Shown piece by piece: positions 24,285 to 33,360 of a stretch of DNA of 64,000 nt (position 1 is the stretch's first letter; each line of letters begins with the position of its first letter). Both the position numbers and the translations under genes were made by a program. The stretch comes from an uncultured Clostridia bacterium. Lineage in GTDB: Bacteria > Bacillota > Clostridia > Christensenellales > UBA1242. A model generated the notes under the pieces. The model was not told the origin of the DNA. It did no database searches and saw nothing but the letters and a program-made list of their open reading frames with translations. The DNA is taken from the NCBI GenBank assembly GCA_945919375.1, contig CAMEJD010000001.1, forward strand, positions 1 through 64,000, written 5' to 3'.

Positions 24285-24334
24285 GGTTGAGATTTCTCCA
24301 AAGCAAACCAATACAAGTCGGCAGTCGGAATGAC
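24285..24334. repeat. Dispersed intergenic repeat copy
   Basis: GGTTGAGATTTCTCCAAAGC...GGAATGAC. Confidence 0.6.
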
Positions 24335-24340
24335 TAGTAA

Positions 24341-24451
24341 AAAAAAGACACAAGAACAAGGTTACCCGAGTTCATGCACGCAGGAGCTTGCTTTCGCAAG
24401 TGACTGTGTGCAAGATGCTCGGCAGTAAACAAAGTTATTGTGTTCTTTTTT
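24341..24451 (-). ncRNA. Structured RNA element, isolated copy
   Basis: Minus strand: outer AAGAACACAA/TTGTGTCTT, CCGAG/CTCGG, TGCACACAG/CTGCGTGCA, CTTGC-GAAA-GCAAG, then poly-T; homologous to the 30.6-kb copy with compensatory changes. Confidence 0.65.
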
Positions 24452-24455
24452 ATTT

Positions 24456-26867
24456 TTAATAGTACATTTTTTTGTAATCGTTCTTTCCACCGCCTTTACC
24501 ACCAAAGCCACCACGCTTGCCTTTAATGATAAAGAATATAACAAGACCGATTATCAAAAGTCCACCACCAATTCCACAAGTTACCCATATCCATGTTGTA
24601 TCGGTATTATTTTCTTCAATTTCTTTTTTAAAACTTGCAACAATTGTCATTGTTTCATCTTCGTTTGTGATTTCAAGTTCAATTTCAAGTGTGTCGCCAA
24701 GTGTCCCAATGTTGCTTGTTCCATCGCTTTGGAACCAATTTAAAAACTCATAACCTGCAGGAAGTGAAACGGAAAATTTTGCCGTTTCGCCCATTTTTGC
24801 TTTTACTGTAAGAATGTTATCTTTTGCTTGAACATTTGAACCATTAAACTTTATTGTTGACAAAATATCATCAGTTATTTCATCATTAACTGCAAATTTT
24901 ATTGTTATGTCACAAACTCTTTTTGTGAATGTTGCATAAAGCATTAAATTATCTTCACCAAGTGTGAGTCCACCAAATATTCCTCCATCTTCAAATGCTT
25001 TTTCATTGAATTCAACTTTGATTTGTTGTTGTGTTCCTAATAGTTTGTTTTTTTCTTCATCACGATACCAACCATTAAACCCAAAATCACTTGTTGGTGT
25101 TGCTGTGTAATTTAAAGAACTGCCATAAACAACATTTGTTTCTGTGAACTCTTTTTGTTCAACACTTGCAGTACTTCTTTTTACTGTGCCTTGATTTACA
25201 TCTTCGGACTTTACAAGAACCGAATAGTTTATTGTTTCTAGTGCCAAAGAATAAATCCCAACATTTGTCAAGTTACCATTTGGAATTGTATACACATTGA
25301 CTTCGTTATCATTTATCGAATATTTGTTCCAAAGTATATTTGATGTGCTAATTGCATAAGTTTTTGCTATGTTTCCACCGATGTCACTTTCTGTTTCGGT
25401 TACTGTTATTCCATTATTTTTGTAAATTATTTTGCCTTCTTGTGTTTCAATTTGCGTGTCAGGATTACCTTCGCTTATTATTTCTTCAACTTTTTTGTTG
25501 TCAAAAATAAGTGAGCCATCTTTTCTTATTCCAACAGTTTTAAAGAACTTGTTCATATTTGAAACATTGTTAATATAACCACCAATTTCAATATCTTCAC
25601 CATAACGATATGTACACCCTGCATTTGTAATGAAAGTGATAATTTCTGTTACATCTTTTGGTTTGTTTGTATAGTCAAAACTTTTTGCTTCATTTACTGT
25701 GTATGTGAAACTATCAAAATGCTGAAGTGTTGGCAAACTTTTGGCAGTTTTCAATTGCCAAACGGAATTAAAATTCCAAGGGAAAAGTTTGTCAAATTTT
25801 TGCATTTCCAAGTAATAATTTTTTACATAAAAATTGTTTACATCAACTTGGCTTTCGATTTTATTGCTTTTAAAGGCATTATTTGTTTTTGCATTTAGTT
25901 GCTCCAAATTTCCAATTGTATCTAATGTGTTTGTTGAATACAAATAATTAACCTTTTGACTATCTGGAGTTAAAGATAATGAAATTTGTGCAATCAAACT
26001 ATATGCAAGAATATCATCATTGCATTCCGTAAGTGTTATCACACCTTTTGAAACAACACTTTGAATACTTGAACGATTGCCAACAAGTTGTCCAACAAGG
26101 CCACCAATTAACGAGTTTTTGCTTTGCACTTCGTTGATTTGCAATGAGATGTCTTGAACAACAAAGTTAATTGTTGAGTTCTCAACATAACCGGCAATTC
26201 CACCGACATAATTTGTTTTTGTTTCATCTTCGTTTTTAAAAGCAATATCTCCATTTAGATAACAATTTTTTATAACACAACCATCGGATATATTCCCTGC
26301 GATCAAGCCAACATAACTTCTTGATTTTGAAACAACATTCAAGGTTTGCAAAAGGTTCGTATTGCAAATTATTGAAACTTCTTCTATTCTTGAAGATACC
26401 ATGTTTCCACAAATTACACCTGCTTTAAGGTATTCGCCTTCAATTGTTTGAGATGTTGCAATTGATATATTTTTTAGTTGGAGATTTTTTATTGTTGCAT
26501 TATTTAATTTATTAAAAATTCCGGCAAAAGGCTTATCTTCGCTTGTAACTGCCAAGTCTGAAATTGTGTAACCATTTCCATCAATTTCACCAGAGAATGT
26601 ATCAAGACCTTCAAAATTGTCTACTCCGGCAAAGCTAATGTCATTGGCTAATTTGTATTTCCCCGTTGGGTTTGCTTGTATAGTTGCAAAATCTTGCACA
26701 CTGGAAATGTTTGTGTAGGTGTCATCTTGAGCAAAGGTGATATTGTTCTTTGGCACAAAAAATGCAAGACCAAAGGCAAACACAAATATTAAACTAAAAA
26801 CAAAACAATATTTTTTCAAAATAATTTCTCCAATTTTGATTTTATTTACAAAATAAATATAACACAC
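24456..26867 (-). CDS. Secreted/membrane-anchored surface protein with GLUG-like and InlB-type repeats
   Basis: Signal peptide (KKYCFVFSLIFVFAFGLAFFVPKNN), GGIAGYVENSTINF units, InlB-like YTATPTSDFGFNGWYRDEEK, C-terminal TM plus Gly/Lys tail. Confidence 0.75.
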   Translation of the reverse strand: MCYIYFVNKIKIGEIILKKYCFVFSLIFVFAFGLAFFVPKNNITFAQDDTYTNISSVQDFATIQANPTGKYKLANDISFAGVDNFEGLDTFSGEIDGNGYTISDLAVTSEDKPFAGIFNKLNNATIKNLQLKNISIATSQTIEGEYLKAGVICGNMVSSRIEEVSIICNTNLLQTLNVVSKSRSYVGLIAGNISDGCVIKNCYLNGDIAFKNEDETKTNYVGGIAGYVENSTINFVVQDISLQINEVQSKNSLIGGLVGQLVGNRSSIQSVVSKGVITLTECNDDILAYSLIAQISLSLTPDSQKVNYLYSTNTLDTIGNLEQLNAKTNNAFKSNKIESQVDVNNFYVKNYYLEMQKFDKLFPWNFNSVWQLKTAKSLPTLQHFDSFTYTVNEAKSFDYTNKPKDVTEIITFITNAGCTYRYGEDIEIGGYINNVSNMNKFFKTVGIRKDGSLIFDNKKVEEIISEGNPDTQIETQEGKIIYKNNGITVTETESDIGGNIAKTYAISTSNILWNKYSINDNEVNVYTIPNGNLTNVGIYSLALETINYSVLVKSEDVNQGTVKRSTASVEQKEFTETNVVYGSSLNYTATPTSDFGFNGWYRDEEKNKLLGTQQQIKVEFNEKAFEDGGIFGGLTLGEDNLMLYATFTKRVCDITIKFAVNDEITDDILSTIKFNGSNVQAKDNILTVKAKMGETAKFSVSLPAGYEFLNWFQSDGTSNIGTLGDTLEIELEITNEDETMTIVASFKKEIEENNTDTTWIWVTCGIGGGLLIIGLVIFFIIKGKRGGFGGKGGGKNDYKKMYY

Positions 26868-26975: not shown

Positions 26976-28415
26976 TTACAATTTATACGACTGTAATTTC
27001 ATTTTTCTTATCAATTTTTCTTTGTCCTTTTGAATTTCTGTTTTTTGAGATTTTGGACGGATATTTTCTGGTCTTGACATAATATAATATCTCAATTCAT
27101 CAAGGCAGTGGTCGTCTTTTTTTATTGGATGGTCTGCATTACCCCAAAAGTAGGATTTCAGTTCTCTTATAAGGTTTGTACAGGTTTTAAAGATAAATAA
27201 TTTGGACTTACCTTGTGCATCTTTTAGGTAAGTTTTTACACGTTGAATCCCTGTGAATAAATCTTTGTTGACCTTTGGGTTTACTTGTATTTTGTAGTCA
27301 TAAAAAAGTTCTGTCACACTCTTTTCACTTGCCAAAGTTTTTTGATTTGCGGCACTATCAATTAGTGCATAAATATACCCCGAACTTGTTTTTGGCCAAT
27401 TTAATCTTTCGCAAATGTTTTTTATTGCATTTGCATGATATTCAATTCCTTTTTTTGCTTCAAAATGCTCGGCAATGACATAAATATTGTTATCATAATC
27501 AACAGCATAAAAATGACAAGAAAGCGGATTATTAAGCCCCGGGTCAATTGATATGTTATCATACCACTCTATCGGGACATTGAATGGTTCAATAACATTA
27601 ACATTTTCATCAAACTCGGGATATACCATTCCCCCATTTGCAGTAAACTTGCCATAACGTCTTGCATCCAACTCATCAGCCGACATTGAACTTGTCAGTG
27701 CCTCAATTTCGTCTTTTGACAAATACGGATTATCTGCCCATTCCATTTCTTCGCACCACACTTCTTTGTCGTTTTTGCTATTTAGGTATATTTCGTCATA
27801 TACCCATGTTAAACCTTTTAGAGGTGTCATTGTTCCAAACAAATCACCTTGTTTGTCAAATACACGCATCTTGCATTCTTTGTATATATCTTCTGGAGGT
27901 TCTTCATCAAACCAGACGAAGTCAAGACTTGTGCCTTGAAATTTCTCCCTACCTTGGTCGCAACTTTTGAAACCTATTTTGCTTACTCCCCCAAAGACAT
28001 TTTTTATTAAGATATAGTCAATAATTCCACTTGACAAACTATCTTTTCTACCCGATAGCATTACAACATCTTGAATCCAATCAGGATTAAGATATGATAA
28101 TATTTTTGCTTGTGCAACATCTCTTTGAACTTGTGTTGATAGTGAAACAACCCAGCAAGATATATCTTTTTTATTCTTTCTAAAAGGATGTATTCCACGA
28201 GCAAGCCAAACGGTTTCAACAGCACCACATTCAGTTTTTCCACTTCGATTGCCACCAAACACCCAACGATTTCTTTTTTGACATTTGTGAAATAGTAATT
28301 GTTTTTGATGTTTTTTTTCACCAGTGTTATATTTTGACAATTTGGCATTGCAATTTAGTTTTGTTATTTGCAAATCTATTTTTGATATTTGTGATAAAAT
28401 TTCTTCCTTGTTCAA
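26976..28415 (-). CDS. terL: Phage terminase large subunit
   Basis: Walker A VFGGNRSGKTECGAVE, Walker B LDFVWFDEEP, motif FGTMTPLKG, nuclease IDPGLNNPLSCHFY. Confidence 0.92.
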   Translation of the reverse strand: MNKEEILSQISKIDLQITKLNCNAKLSKYNTGEKKHQKQLLFHKCQKRNRWVFGGNRSGKTECGAVETVWLARGIHPFRKNKKDISCWVVSLSTQVQRDVAQAKILSYLNPDWIQDVVMLSGRKDSLSSGIIDYILIKNVFGGVSKIGFKSCDQGREKFQGTSLDFVWFDEEPPEDIYKECKMRVFDKQGDLFGTMTPLKGLTWVYDEIYLNSKNDKEVWCEEMEWADNPYLSKDEIEALTSSMSADELDARRYGKFTANGGMVYPEFDENVNVIEPFNVPIEWYDNISIDPGLNNPLSCHFYAVDYDNNIYVIAEHFEAKKGIEYHANAIKNICERLNWPKTSSGYIYALIDSAANQKTLASEKSVTELFYDYKIQVNPKVNKDLFTGIQRVKTYLKDAQGKSKLFIFKTCTNLIRELKSYFWGNADHPIKKDDHCLDELRYYIMSRPENIRPKSQKTEIQKDKEKLIRKMKLQSYKL

Positions 28416-30010: not shown

Positions 30011-30264
30011 GGAAATTCCATAAATTGTCAATTGCCTTTTGTTTTTATGTTTTATAATTGAACATATGTTCTATATATAACACTCAAAACTTGACAACAG
30101 TATGTCAACAAATAAAAAATACTGAAGATTATTTTGTAAACCATTTCTCTATAATTGTTCACTAACCTGTGTTTAACCATATAACAATAAAGTTTTAAAT
30201 CGGTTGAGATTCCCCATAACACAGTAGTTTGCTGATGCAAATAGTGCTTCGCCATTTTAGACTG

Positions 30265-30716
30265 CGTCTCATTTTAAAGATTGTACAAACACATGATGTC
30301 TATGCTCATTGTAATGACTATGTGAAAATCACCAAATAGATAACAAAGAAGTTTTTGTACTATATGAAAATAAAAAAAACAAGAACAAGGTTCAGTGAGT
30401 TCGCACACCTAGGAGTTTAGTTTTCTAAATGACTGTGTGTATGATGCTTGCAAATAAACAATGTTAGTATTTTAAAATAAAAAAAATAGCCCGAAATTCG
30501 ATGTTCACTTGGCATTTTCACTCAGAACTTACCTACATAAGTAACTGTATGCAAATTTCCAAGCAGAAACAAAGAAGTTTTTGTACTATCTAAAAATAAA
30601 AAAAAGAACCCCAAGAACAAGGCTCGGTGAGTTCACACACGCAGGAGTTTAGTTTCCTAAATGACTGTGTGTGTGATGCTCGCCAGTAAACGAAGTTATT
30701 GGGAGTTCTTTTTTTA
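30265..30716 (-). ncRNA. Tandem array of about four copies (two degenerate) of the same structured RNA element
   Basis: Motif (A)TGACTGTGTG at 30314, 30429, 30541, 30661 and (A)AACAAAG-type motif at 30339, 30454, 30565, 30686, a 111-121 bp period; best copy 30602-30716. Confidence 0.6.
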
Positions 30717-30723
30717 TTTTTTA

Positions 30724-33360
30724 TTATTTTCTAGGGTTTTTGATGTTTGCTTGTGCAGCCGCTAATCTTGCGATTGGCACTCTAAATGGTGAACAAGAAA
30801 CATATGTGAGTCCTGTGTTATGGCAGAATTCGATTGATGATGGATCTCCACCATGTTCTCCACAAATTCCAAGTTCCATATTTGGACGAGTTTGTTTTCC
30901 AAGTCTTGTTGCATTTTCAATTAACTTACCTACACCATGTGTATCAAGTTTTGCAAATGGGTCAAATTCATAAATCTTGTGTTCATAGTATGATTTTAAG
31001 AATTTACCTGCATCATCACGAGAAAAACCAAATGTCATTTGTGTTAAATCGTTTGTTCCAAATGAGAAATATTCAGCTTCTTTTGCGATTTCGTCAGCAA
31101 GAAGTGCTGCTCTTGGTATTTCTATCATTGTACCAACTTTATATTCCATATTAAGACCTGATTCTTTGATTAAAGCATCAGCAGTTTCGGAAACAATTTT
31201 TTTAACAAATGCAAGTTCTTTTACTTCGCCAACAAGTGGAATCATAATTTCAGGTTCTGTCTTAAATTCTGGGTGGCGTTTTGTTACTGCAATTGCGGCC
31301 TTAATTACGGCTGTTGTTTGCATTCTTGCGATTTCTGGGAATGTTACAGCAAGTCTGCAACCACGATGTCCCATCATTGGGTTGAATTCATGGAGTGAAG
31401 CAATAATTTGTTTTACTTCTTCAACAGTTTTGCCTTGAGAATTGGCAAGAAGTTTTATATCGGCTTCTTCTGTTGGAACGAATTCATGAAGAGGTGGATC
31501 AAGGAAACGAATGTTTACTGGAAGACCTTTTGCTTCTTCATAAAGTTTTTCAAAGTCGCCTTGTTGCATTGGCTCAAGTTTATCCAATGCCTTTACTCTT
31601 TGTTCAACTGTATCAGCACAAATCATTTCACGAATTGCAGCAATACGGTCCGGTTCAAAGAACATATGCTCTGTTCTGCAAAGTCCAATACCTTCTGCCC
31701 CAAACATAAATGCTTGATGTGCGTCTTTTGGAGTATCTGCATTTGTTCTAACGGAAAGTGCCTTATACTTGTTTGCCCAAGCCATAATTCTCCCAAATTC
31801 ACCATCATTAGTGTTTGCTGGAACAGTTGCGATTATCCCATCATAAATTTTTCCTGTTGAACCATCAAGAGAGATTTCATCTCCTTCATGATAAGTTTTC
31901 CCATTAAGAGTGAAGCATTTGTTTTCTTCGTCCATCTTAATATCTCCACAACCAGATACACAACAAGTTCCCATACCACGAGCAACAACGGCTGCGTGAG
32001 ATGTCATACCACCACGAACAGTAAGTACACCTTGTGCATAGTGCATACCTTCTATATCTTCTGGAGATGTTTCCAAACGAACGAGAACAACTTTCTCTTT
32101 GTTTTTACCATGTTTTACGGCATCTTCTGCAGTAAATACAATCTTTCCACAAGCAGCACCTGGAGATGCAGCAAGTGCTTGTGCAATTGGTTGAGCAGAT
32201 TTTAATGCTTTTGTATCAAATTGTGGGTGAAGAAGTGAATCGAGAGATTTTGGGTCAATTTGCATAATTGCATCTTGTTCTGTAATCATTCCTTCATCAA
32301 CTAAATCGCAAGCGATTTTGATTGCCGCTTTTGCTGTTCTTTTACCATTACGAGTTTGGAGCATATACAATTTTTTATCTTCAATTGTAAATTCCATATC
32401 TTGCATATCATGGTAGTGATTTTCCAATGTTTTGCAAATTTCTTGGAATTGTTCATAAACATGTGGCATAATTTCTGCCATTTTTGATATTGGCATTGGA
32501 GTTCTTACACCAGCAACAACATCTTCACCTTGGGCATTCATTAAGAATTCACCCATAAGTTTCTTTTCGCCAGTTGCAGGGTCACGAGTGAAAGCAACAC
32601 CTGTTCCAGATGTTTCGCCCATATTACCAAAAACCATCATTTGAACATTAACTGCTGTACCCCATGAGTATGGAATATCATTTTGCATACGATAGTAGTT
32701 TGCTCTTGGGTTATCCCATGATCTAAATACGGCTTTGATTGCACCAAATAATTGCTCTTTTGGGTCATCTGGGAAATCTTGACCTATTTTTGCTTTATAT
32801 TCTGCCTTAAATTTGCCAGCGAGTTCTTTTAGGTCTTCTGCTGTAAGGTCGATGTCAAGTGTAACACCTTTTTTTTCTTTTAATTCGTCAATAAGTTGTT
32901 CAAAATACTTTTTACCAACTTCCATAACTACATCACTGTACATTTGAATAAATCTACGATAGCAGTCCCAAGCCCATCTTGGATTACCCGATTTTTTTGC
33001 AATAACTTCAACGACCTTTTCGGTAAGTCCAAGGTTCAAAATTGTGTCCATCATACCAGGCATTGATGCTCTTGCACCACTACGAACAGAAACTAGAAGT
33101 GGATTTTCTTCATCACCGAATTTTTTGCCAGTGATTTTTTCCATTTTTGAAATATATTCCATAATTTCTGCTTGAATTTCTGGATTGATTTGACGACCAT
33201 CTTCATAGTACTGTGTACAAGCTTCTGTTGATATTGTGAAGCCTTGTGGAACAGGAAGTCCTAGGTTTGTCATTTCGGCAAGGTTTGCGCCCTTACCACC
33301 CAAAAGTTCACGCATTTTTGCGTTACCTTCGGTAAACAAATAAACGTATTTTTTTGCCAT
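30724..33360 (-). CDS. ppdK: Pyruvate, phosphate dikinase
   Basis: KYVYLFTEGNAKMRELLGGKGANLAEMTNLGLPVPQGFTIST; GGMTSHAAVVARGMGTCCVSG; GICGEHGGDP. Confidence 0.98.
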   Translation of the reverse strand: MAKKYVYLFTEGNAKMRELLGGKGANLAEMTNLGLPVPQGFTISTEACTQYYEDGRQINPEIQAEIMEYISKMEKITGKKFGDEENPLLVSVRSGARASMPGMMDTILNLGLTEKVVEVIAKKSGNPRWAWDCYRRFIQMYSDVVMEVGKKYFEQLIDELKEKKGVTLDIDLTAEDLKELAGKFKAEYKAKIGQDFPDDPKEQLFGAIKAVFRSWDNPRANYYRMQNDIPYSWGTAVNVQMMVFGNMGETSGTGVAFTRDPATGEKKLMGEFLMNAQGEDVVAGVRTPMPISKMAEIMPHVYEQFQEICKTLENHYHDMQDMEFTIEDKKLYMLQTRNGKRTAKAAIKIACDLVDEGMITEQDAIMQIDPKSLDSLLHPQFDTKALKSAQPIAQALAASPGAACGKIVFTAEDAVKHGKNKEKVVLVRLETSPEDIEGMHYAQGVLTVRGGMTSHAAVVARGMGTCCVSGCGDIKMDEENKCFTLNGKTYHEGDEISLDGSTGKIYDGIIATVPANTNDGEFGRIMAWANKYKALSVRTNADTPKDAHQAFMFGAEGIGLCRTEHMFFEPDRIAAIREMICADTVEQRVKALDKLEPMQQGDFEKLYEEAKGLPVNIRFLDPPLHEFVPTEEADIKLLANSQGKTVEEVKQIIASLHEFNPMMGHRGCRLAVTFPEIARMQTTAVIKAAIAVTKRHPEFKTEPEIMIPLVGEVKELAFVKKIVSETADALIKESGLNMEYKVGTMIEIPRAALLADEIAKEAEYFSFGTNDLTQMTFGFSRDDAGKFLKSYYEHKIYEFDPFAKLDTHGVGKLIENATRLGKQTRPNMELGICGEHGGDPSSIEFCHNTGLTYVSCSPFRVPIARLAAAQANIKNPRK

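Follow-up and report, generated by a model that had tools for sequence, protein, structure and literature searches.

Hairpin array downstream of ppdK

The window analysed here is the whole 64,000-nt stretch, positions 1 to 64,000 of contig CAMEJD010000001.1. Within it, the gene for pyruvate phosphate dikinase (ppdK; 30724..33360, minus strand; Pfam PF01326, PF00391 and PF02896) hosts a tandem array of hairpin units at its 3' end. The array, first reported in an earlier note made from the letters of this DNA, is real, with motifs at ~30314, 30430, 30541 and 30661 on the plus strand and units delineated on the minus strand using a covariance model. Unit 1 (30595..30714, minus, 133 bits), a full hairpin and the newest copy, stands ~10 nt 3' of the ppdK stop, where that note had placed its best copy. 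Unit 2 (30476..30594, minus, 63 bits) is of another subtype with a TTGG..CCAA stem; in the sequence its left outer arm is gone and its right outer arm, GGGCTATTTTTTTT, is retained. Unit 3 (30368..30474, minus, 69 bits) is of unit 1's subtype, has lost the left outer arm and retains the right arm and T run, and is 83% identical to unit 1 over 103 nt (30364-30466 against 30596-30698), with diverged copies in between. The fourth unit of the earlier description is a left half alone (30313..30359, minus), recovered by half-element BLAST, which carries a ~70-nt foreign insert in its hairpin tip (ACAATGAGCATAG...GGCGAAGCACTA; sequence match at 30222..30319, minus, taking in the last bases of the unit 4 left arm); a decayed right arm (TTTGCATCAGCAAACTACTGTG), read by eye, appears to resume beyond the insert at ~30210..30243 (minus). 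The copies are, as had been described, more degraded farther from the gene.

The ~70-nt segment (ACAAGGAGCATA...GGGCGAAGCCCTA) was also found as a tip insert at the identical position in the old copies L112, L116 and L136, and is present in old hairpin copies after secG and dnaN. This shared position in several old copies makes the segment a candidate for a further small mobile sequence.

The minimum-energy fold of unit 1 on the minus strand (-47.1 kcal/mol; shuffle mean -21.1; z -7.9) contains nearly all of the nested stem pairs previously named, together with the GAAA loop. Complementarity reaches into the A/T tracts that flank the unit (DNA fold of 30590-30727, z -7.1), and a terminator-like site on the minus strand at 30625-30606 is followed by T8. 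Judged from its sequence, this copy looks like an intrinsic terminator, a GC-containing hairpin and a T run just after the gene. For the plus strand an even more stable fold was computed (-59.5, z -9.6), so that folding energy cannot decide the strand and was ruled out as strand evidence; orientation and loop closure indicate the minus strand.

A second, isolated full copy (24334..24453, minus, 115 bits) lies 2-3 nt after the stop of an 803-aa surface-protein-like ORF (24456..26867, minus) in which Pfam matched a Peptidase_M26_N-like region only. This copy is missing at the same place in the sister species G010, where other AT-rich sequence stands. Between the 803-aa ORF and a 281-aa ORF, a phage-type large terminase ORF (Terminase_6N/6C) was located at 26976-28415 (minus), possibly a prophage remnant.

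Occurrence of the family

The repeats after ppdK are members of a previously undescribed family of dispersed hairpin-forming elements. With the best copy as query, matches were numerous and spread over many contigs of the host genome (1.16 Mb, 26 contigs, 96.8% complete), in which gene context was read from the stretches around the copies. A covariance model (R1) built from 12 copies identified 32 copies in this genome. Homologs in other genomes, which the earlier note had proposed to look for, were found with the same model in 17/17 genomes of the genus (4-40 copies per genome) and, patchily, in 34/120 genomes and 14/42 genera of the family. A core-pattern scan of species genomes gave matches in uncultured Clostridia, Candidatus Caccopulliclostridium, Candidatus Stercoripulliclostridium and MAGs labelled Christensenella. 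A core of ~75 nt with invariant unpaired motifs is shared across genera, several of which also have the copy that follows rpsG. Phages and plasmids were searched with no element match, and a single pattern match on a viral contig (L314), unconfirmed by the covariance model, was hence taken as chance. The search of Rfam returned zero matches at gathering thresholds and noise alone at E up to 10, in agreement with the original failure to assign the array to a known RNA family, and no published description of the family was found in the open-access literature.

Consensus anatomy and folding strand

Each element is an imperfect hairpin of ~115-150 nt in which a family-specific core is enclosed by an outer stem of locus-variable sequence; in the consensus of 32 diverse units, the ends are not conserved between loci. 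The core reads roughly CTKYGTTTACTG - stem - ACAG-TCA - apical stem-loop - CTC-CTGC - stem - CGAGCCTYG. On the gene strand, the consensus runs on its 5' side from the outer stem through C-TKY-GTTT(A)CTG, a stem, a CA/A loop in about half of the units and a further stem, then inward through the A.C mismatch, CAG/CTG, TCA/CTC and the apical stem to the loop, returning through CGAGCCTYG. Two unpaired features are fixed, namely the A.C mismatch (202/208 units) and the TCA/CTC loop (185/208). The apical loops close with G..A in 132 cases versus 2 with T..C, the equivalent on the other strand, from which it follows that the gene strand is the strand whose fold matters. GNRA sequences are enriched among the tetraloops (64/116), a proportion that rules out the GNRA loop as an obligatory feature. 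The proposal that the array is to be read in the sense of the gene strand is supported by loop closure and by the orientation of near-gene copies given below. A T5 run within the last 30 nt at the 3' end is present in 140/239 units and absent in 99/239.

Position relative to host genes

Among the 239 distinct units, 132 have an ORF no more than 60 nt upstream; of these, 128 share its strand and 4 are oriented against it (p 5e-33, the p-values being too optimistic because the copies are related and non-independent). Units near an upstream gene start mostly within 12 nt of its stop, most at -9 to +9 nt, and stop-adjacent units are more intact (mean -39.5 versus -29.1 kcal/mol elsewhere). The host ORFs, named from protein termini and with Pfam confirmation for ppdK only among the named housekeeping hosts, include lysS-, glnS-, ppdK-, secG-, rplS-, rpsG-, fusA-, dnaN- and ychF-like genes and others. 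An element is retained between rpsG and fusA (str operon) in several genera, a place where a terminator is unexpected.

The outer arms frequently mirror the end of the host gene. In 14/84 genes with an element (17%), the 3' end of that element carries the reverse complement of 8 or more terminal nucleotides of the coding sequence, counting the stop codon; the corresponding figure downstream of genes without an element is 19/790 (2.4%; Fisher p 4e-7). An instance is L274, in which GAAAAGGCATAA has TTATGCCTTTTC as its mirror. Outer stems of the same kind also occur in hairpins that have no core, and these follow ppdK in G010, a gene in G000 C4 and a tRNA in G012. The mirroring could have arisen either by entry of the core into existing stop-overlapping terminators or by copying of the 3' arm from the 5' arm after insertion; since some native terminators also overlap stops (the 2.4% above), the mirrored codons may derive from captured terminators rather than from copying. 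Dispersal over many genes and the tracking of host gene ends by the outer arms go beyond what the window alone shows.

Covariation and base pairing

Covariation, which had been put forward as a check on the array, is massive. In a set of 32 units, each <72% identical to one another, double changes were observed in 24 of the 30 stem pairs, with a covariation score of 0.67 versus 0.18 for shuffled and at most 0.13 for slid alignments, and with 94% of cells paired versus 67% when shuffled and at most 41% with slid partners. A census over 208 units counted 4571 Watson-Crick pairs, 30 G-U pairs and ~34 A-C pairs outside the fixed mismatch; helices were extended through Watson-Crick pairs, a rule that depresses the G-U and A-C counts alike, and the copies are related. 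G-U pairs thus make up ~0.65% in the elements versus 7.7% (72/937 pairs) in tRNAs of the same loci. As a G-U pair on one strand is an A-C pair on the other, the equal counts indicate that neither strand has RNA-like tolerance, although the rarity of G-U could in part reflect the youth of the copies. The designation of the repeat as an RNA unit is, as stated, not supported by these data, in which stem changes almost avoid G-U and G-U is no commoner than A.C, unlike the outcome of RNA-level selection. The near-exclusive Watson-Crick covariation, together with the fixed A.C and TCA/CTC features, favours a folded strand of DNA over a classical RNA.

A structured regulatory RNA, acting either in cis as a 3'-UTR stabiliser or regulator or as a ~115-nt sRNA released from mRNA 3' ends, and multiplied by recombination, is considered unlikely. 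It would account for the strong covariation, the orientation fixed relative to the transcript, the G..A and GNRA-like loop bias of the sense strand, and the conserved internal loops and invariant U.G positions on that strand. Set against these are the pair census, the absence of a pathway common to the hosts, copy numbers and host genes that differ greatly among species, and the empty Rfam search. For the folded DNA strand, a suitable source of change would be DNA template switching during replication, which can create and repair perfect stems in one event (PMC8794818) and fits both the Watson-Crick-only double changes and the mirrored host codons.

Polarity of the arrays

A half-element search yielded 138 full units, 105 right-only and 33 left-only remnants. 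The right-only remnants lie downstream of a full unit in 96 cases and upstream in 3, and they begin most often at the base that opens the 3' arm of the apical stem (32/105 within two bases), some excess at zero being built in because the half-element queries begin at that base. Inspection of L162 and L187 revealed that the T-run end of the preceding unit stands in place of the left arm and loop, and in the explicit stacks that were seen the stacked right halves are different variants. The arrays are therefore polar: next to the stop codon stands the newest full hairpin, and what persists of older variants downstream is mainly right halves. A simple duplication model of the array is ruled out by the differing right halves and the tip breakpoints, and the repeated duplication suggested previously is an incomplete description, as most units farther from the gene are right halves that stem from various older forms of the hairpin, many of them cut at the tip.

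Comparison with the sister species gave the same picture of replacement. At the L120 gene, G000 has a single full element; G010 has a full element that differs from it and, behind that, the right half of the G000 element, starting from the tip. The gene-proximal copy has here been replaced by a different variant, and differences in presence or absence also occur, as for the copy at 24334.

As a separate observation, L111:2860-2979 in G000 is a chimeric element that joins the left half of one subtype to the right half of another. Its G010 counterpart consists of a full element of the first subtype and then the right half of the second, an arrangement that makes a deletion between conserved cores likely.

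Proposed mode of spread

The reading that we prefer, and hold tentatively with confidence just short of even, is that the repeats are dispersed imperfect-hairpin DNA elements in terminator position, whose sense-strand DNA fold is maintained and copied and which spread by copy-in. The hairpin transcript would end the mRNA as an intrinsic terminator, and the folded sense DNA strand, exposed for example on the lagging-strand template, would be the form that is maintained and copied. A folded DNA strand is proposed because pairing is almost only Watson-Crick while a few unpaired positions are fixed. A copy-in event would link a new hairpin to the end of the gene and resume at the exposed tip of the old one, so that the gene-side (left) arm of the resident hairpin would be deleted; it could proceed via replicative template switching or recombination among copies, with or without a hairpin-recognising enzyme. 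Termination cannot explain everything, as 99/239 copies are without a T5 run and the rpsG-fusA copies lie inside an operon.

A broader version of this reading, a new self-spreading class of DNA hairpins that colonises gene ends by insertion in terminator position only, with an outer arm built on the last codons of the host, loss of the predecessor's gene-side arm at each replacement and an ordered stack of right-half fossils behind it, is put forward as doubtful, if possible. If true, the stack of right halves would preserve a legible history of earlier invasions, in genomes where SbcD was not detected. If the preferred reading is right, the small palindromic bacterial repeats would gain a family with an unusual growth rule, namely gene-side replacement with a cut at the tip. 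The many diversified natural hairpins would provide a set for telling DNA-level from RNA-level compensation, and they caution that strong covariation is by itself no proof of a functional RNA.

SbcD normally attacks long palindromes. No match to SbcD (TIGR00619) above cut-off was obtained in the 17 genomes of the genus, the control being detected in 13/14. Loss of this nuclease may explain the tolerance of long hairpins, and the undetected SbcD is a testable reason for the thriving of long palindromes here.

Movement by a putative enzyme that recognises one folded strand, in the manner of integron integrase on attC or TnpA-REP on REP hairpins, would fit the fixed unpaired bases in otherwise free stems, the fixed orientation, the patchy family-wide distribution and the presence/absence differences between sister species, but it is as improbable as the regulatory RNA. 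The outer ends are not conserved, unlike recombinase sites, and the candidate movers (REP transposase, integron integrase and reverse transcriptase) were not found or fell below cut-off. The Y1 (REP-associated tyrosine) transposase PF01797 had no match in the host genome, with a positive control in 5 genomes; the integron integrase TIGR02249 was above cut-off in 0/17 genomes of the genus, which gave general tyrosine recombinase similarity only; and the reverse transcriptase PF00078 (group II intron or retroelement) was absent from G000, G010, G008 and G001, the host genome included. No direct sign of a transposition event or of a mobilising enzyme was observed.

Terminators near stop codons fit runaway transcription in Bacillota. 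The assignment of runaway transcription to this phylum (PMC13323073), the location after stops and the T runs would suit ordinary intrinsic terminators that look alike through an AT-rich genome, a very improbable account that is refuted as a full explanation by the ~75-nt core with invariant unpaired motifs common to several genera, and opposed also by the tandem right-half stacks and the coexistence of plain core-less terminators.

Comparison with known systems

The elements resemble REP/BIME sequences in being extragenic palindromes in many copies, mostly 3' of genes and clustered, and REP ends often provide the stop codon of a neighbouring ORF (PMC3733652). REP sequences, however, are 20-40 bp long, carry a GTAG or CGTC foot and often come in oppositely oriented pairs, whereas the present elements are ~115-150 nt long, have a consensus without either foot and a single fixed orientation, and reside in a genome without the Y1 transposase.

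The attC sites of integrons also follow gene stops, and the newest integron cassettes stand first. The attC site is palindromic and is recognised as a folded single strand with extrahelical bases (PMC3053210), a likeness to the fixed unpaired bases in variable stems described here (A.C 202/208, TCA/CTC 185/208). Unlike attC, the present elements have no cassettes between copies, no conserved ends and no accompanying integron integrase above cut-off.

The repetitive hairpin elements (RHE) of sponge mitochondria are small hairpins multiplying in the intergenic DNA of compact genomes (PMC2800124). RHE and double-hairpin elements are organellar and the likeness lies in small multiplying hairpins in compact genomes; stop adjacency, fixed mismatches and right-half stacks are features of the present elements. 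Template-switch hairpins share the one-step formation of perfect stems but represent a mutational mechanism and not a dispersed repeat family. Intrinsic terminators share the outer stem and A/T runs right after stops, and differ by the ~75-nt conserved core inside the stem of the present elements. For comparison with MITEs, the terminal arms of the present elements are inverted repeats that are not conserved between loci.

Other repeats associated with the elements

A second repeat of ~115 nt (GGGGTACCCCAAAAACAG...GGAAAAACCGAGCGTGCGAACCGAG...GACGATGAGTC) was found nested in the right arms of hairpin elements in several genomes (L115:3306-3419, L139:1421-1536, L131:3164-3272, L158, L159 and L176). 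At L157:2454-3210 (G001), three near-identical full copies stand at an exact spacing of 319 nt, where a larger tandem repeat carries the element away from stops.
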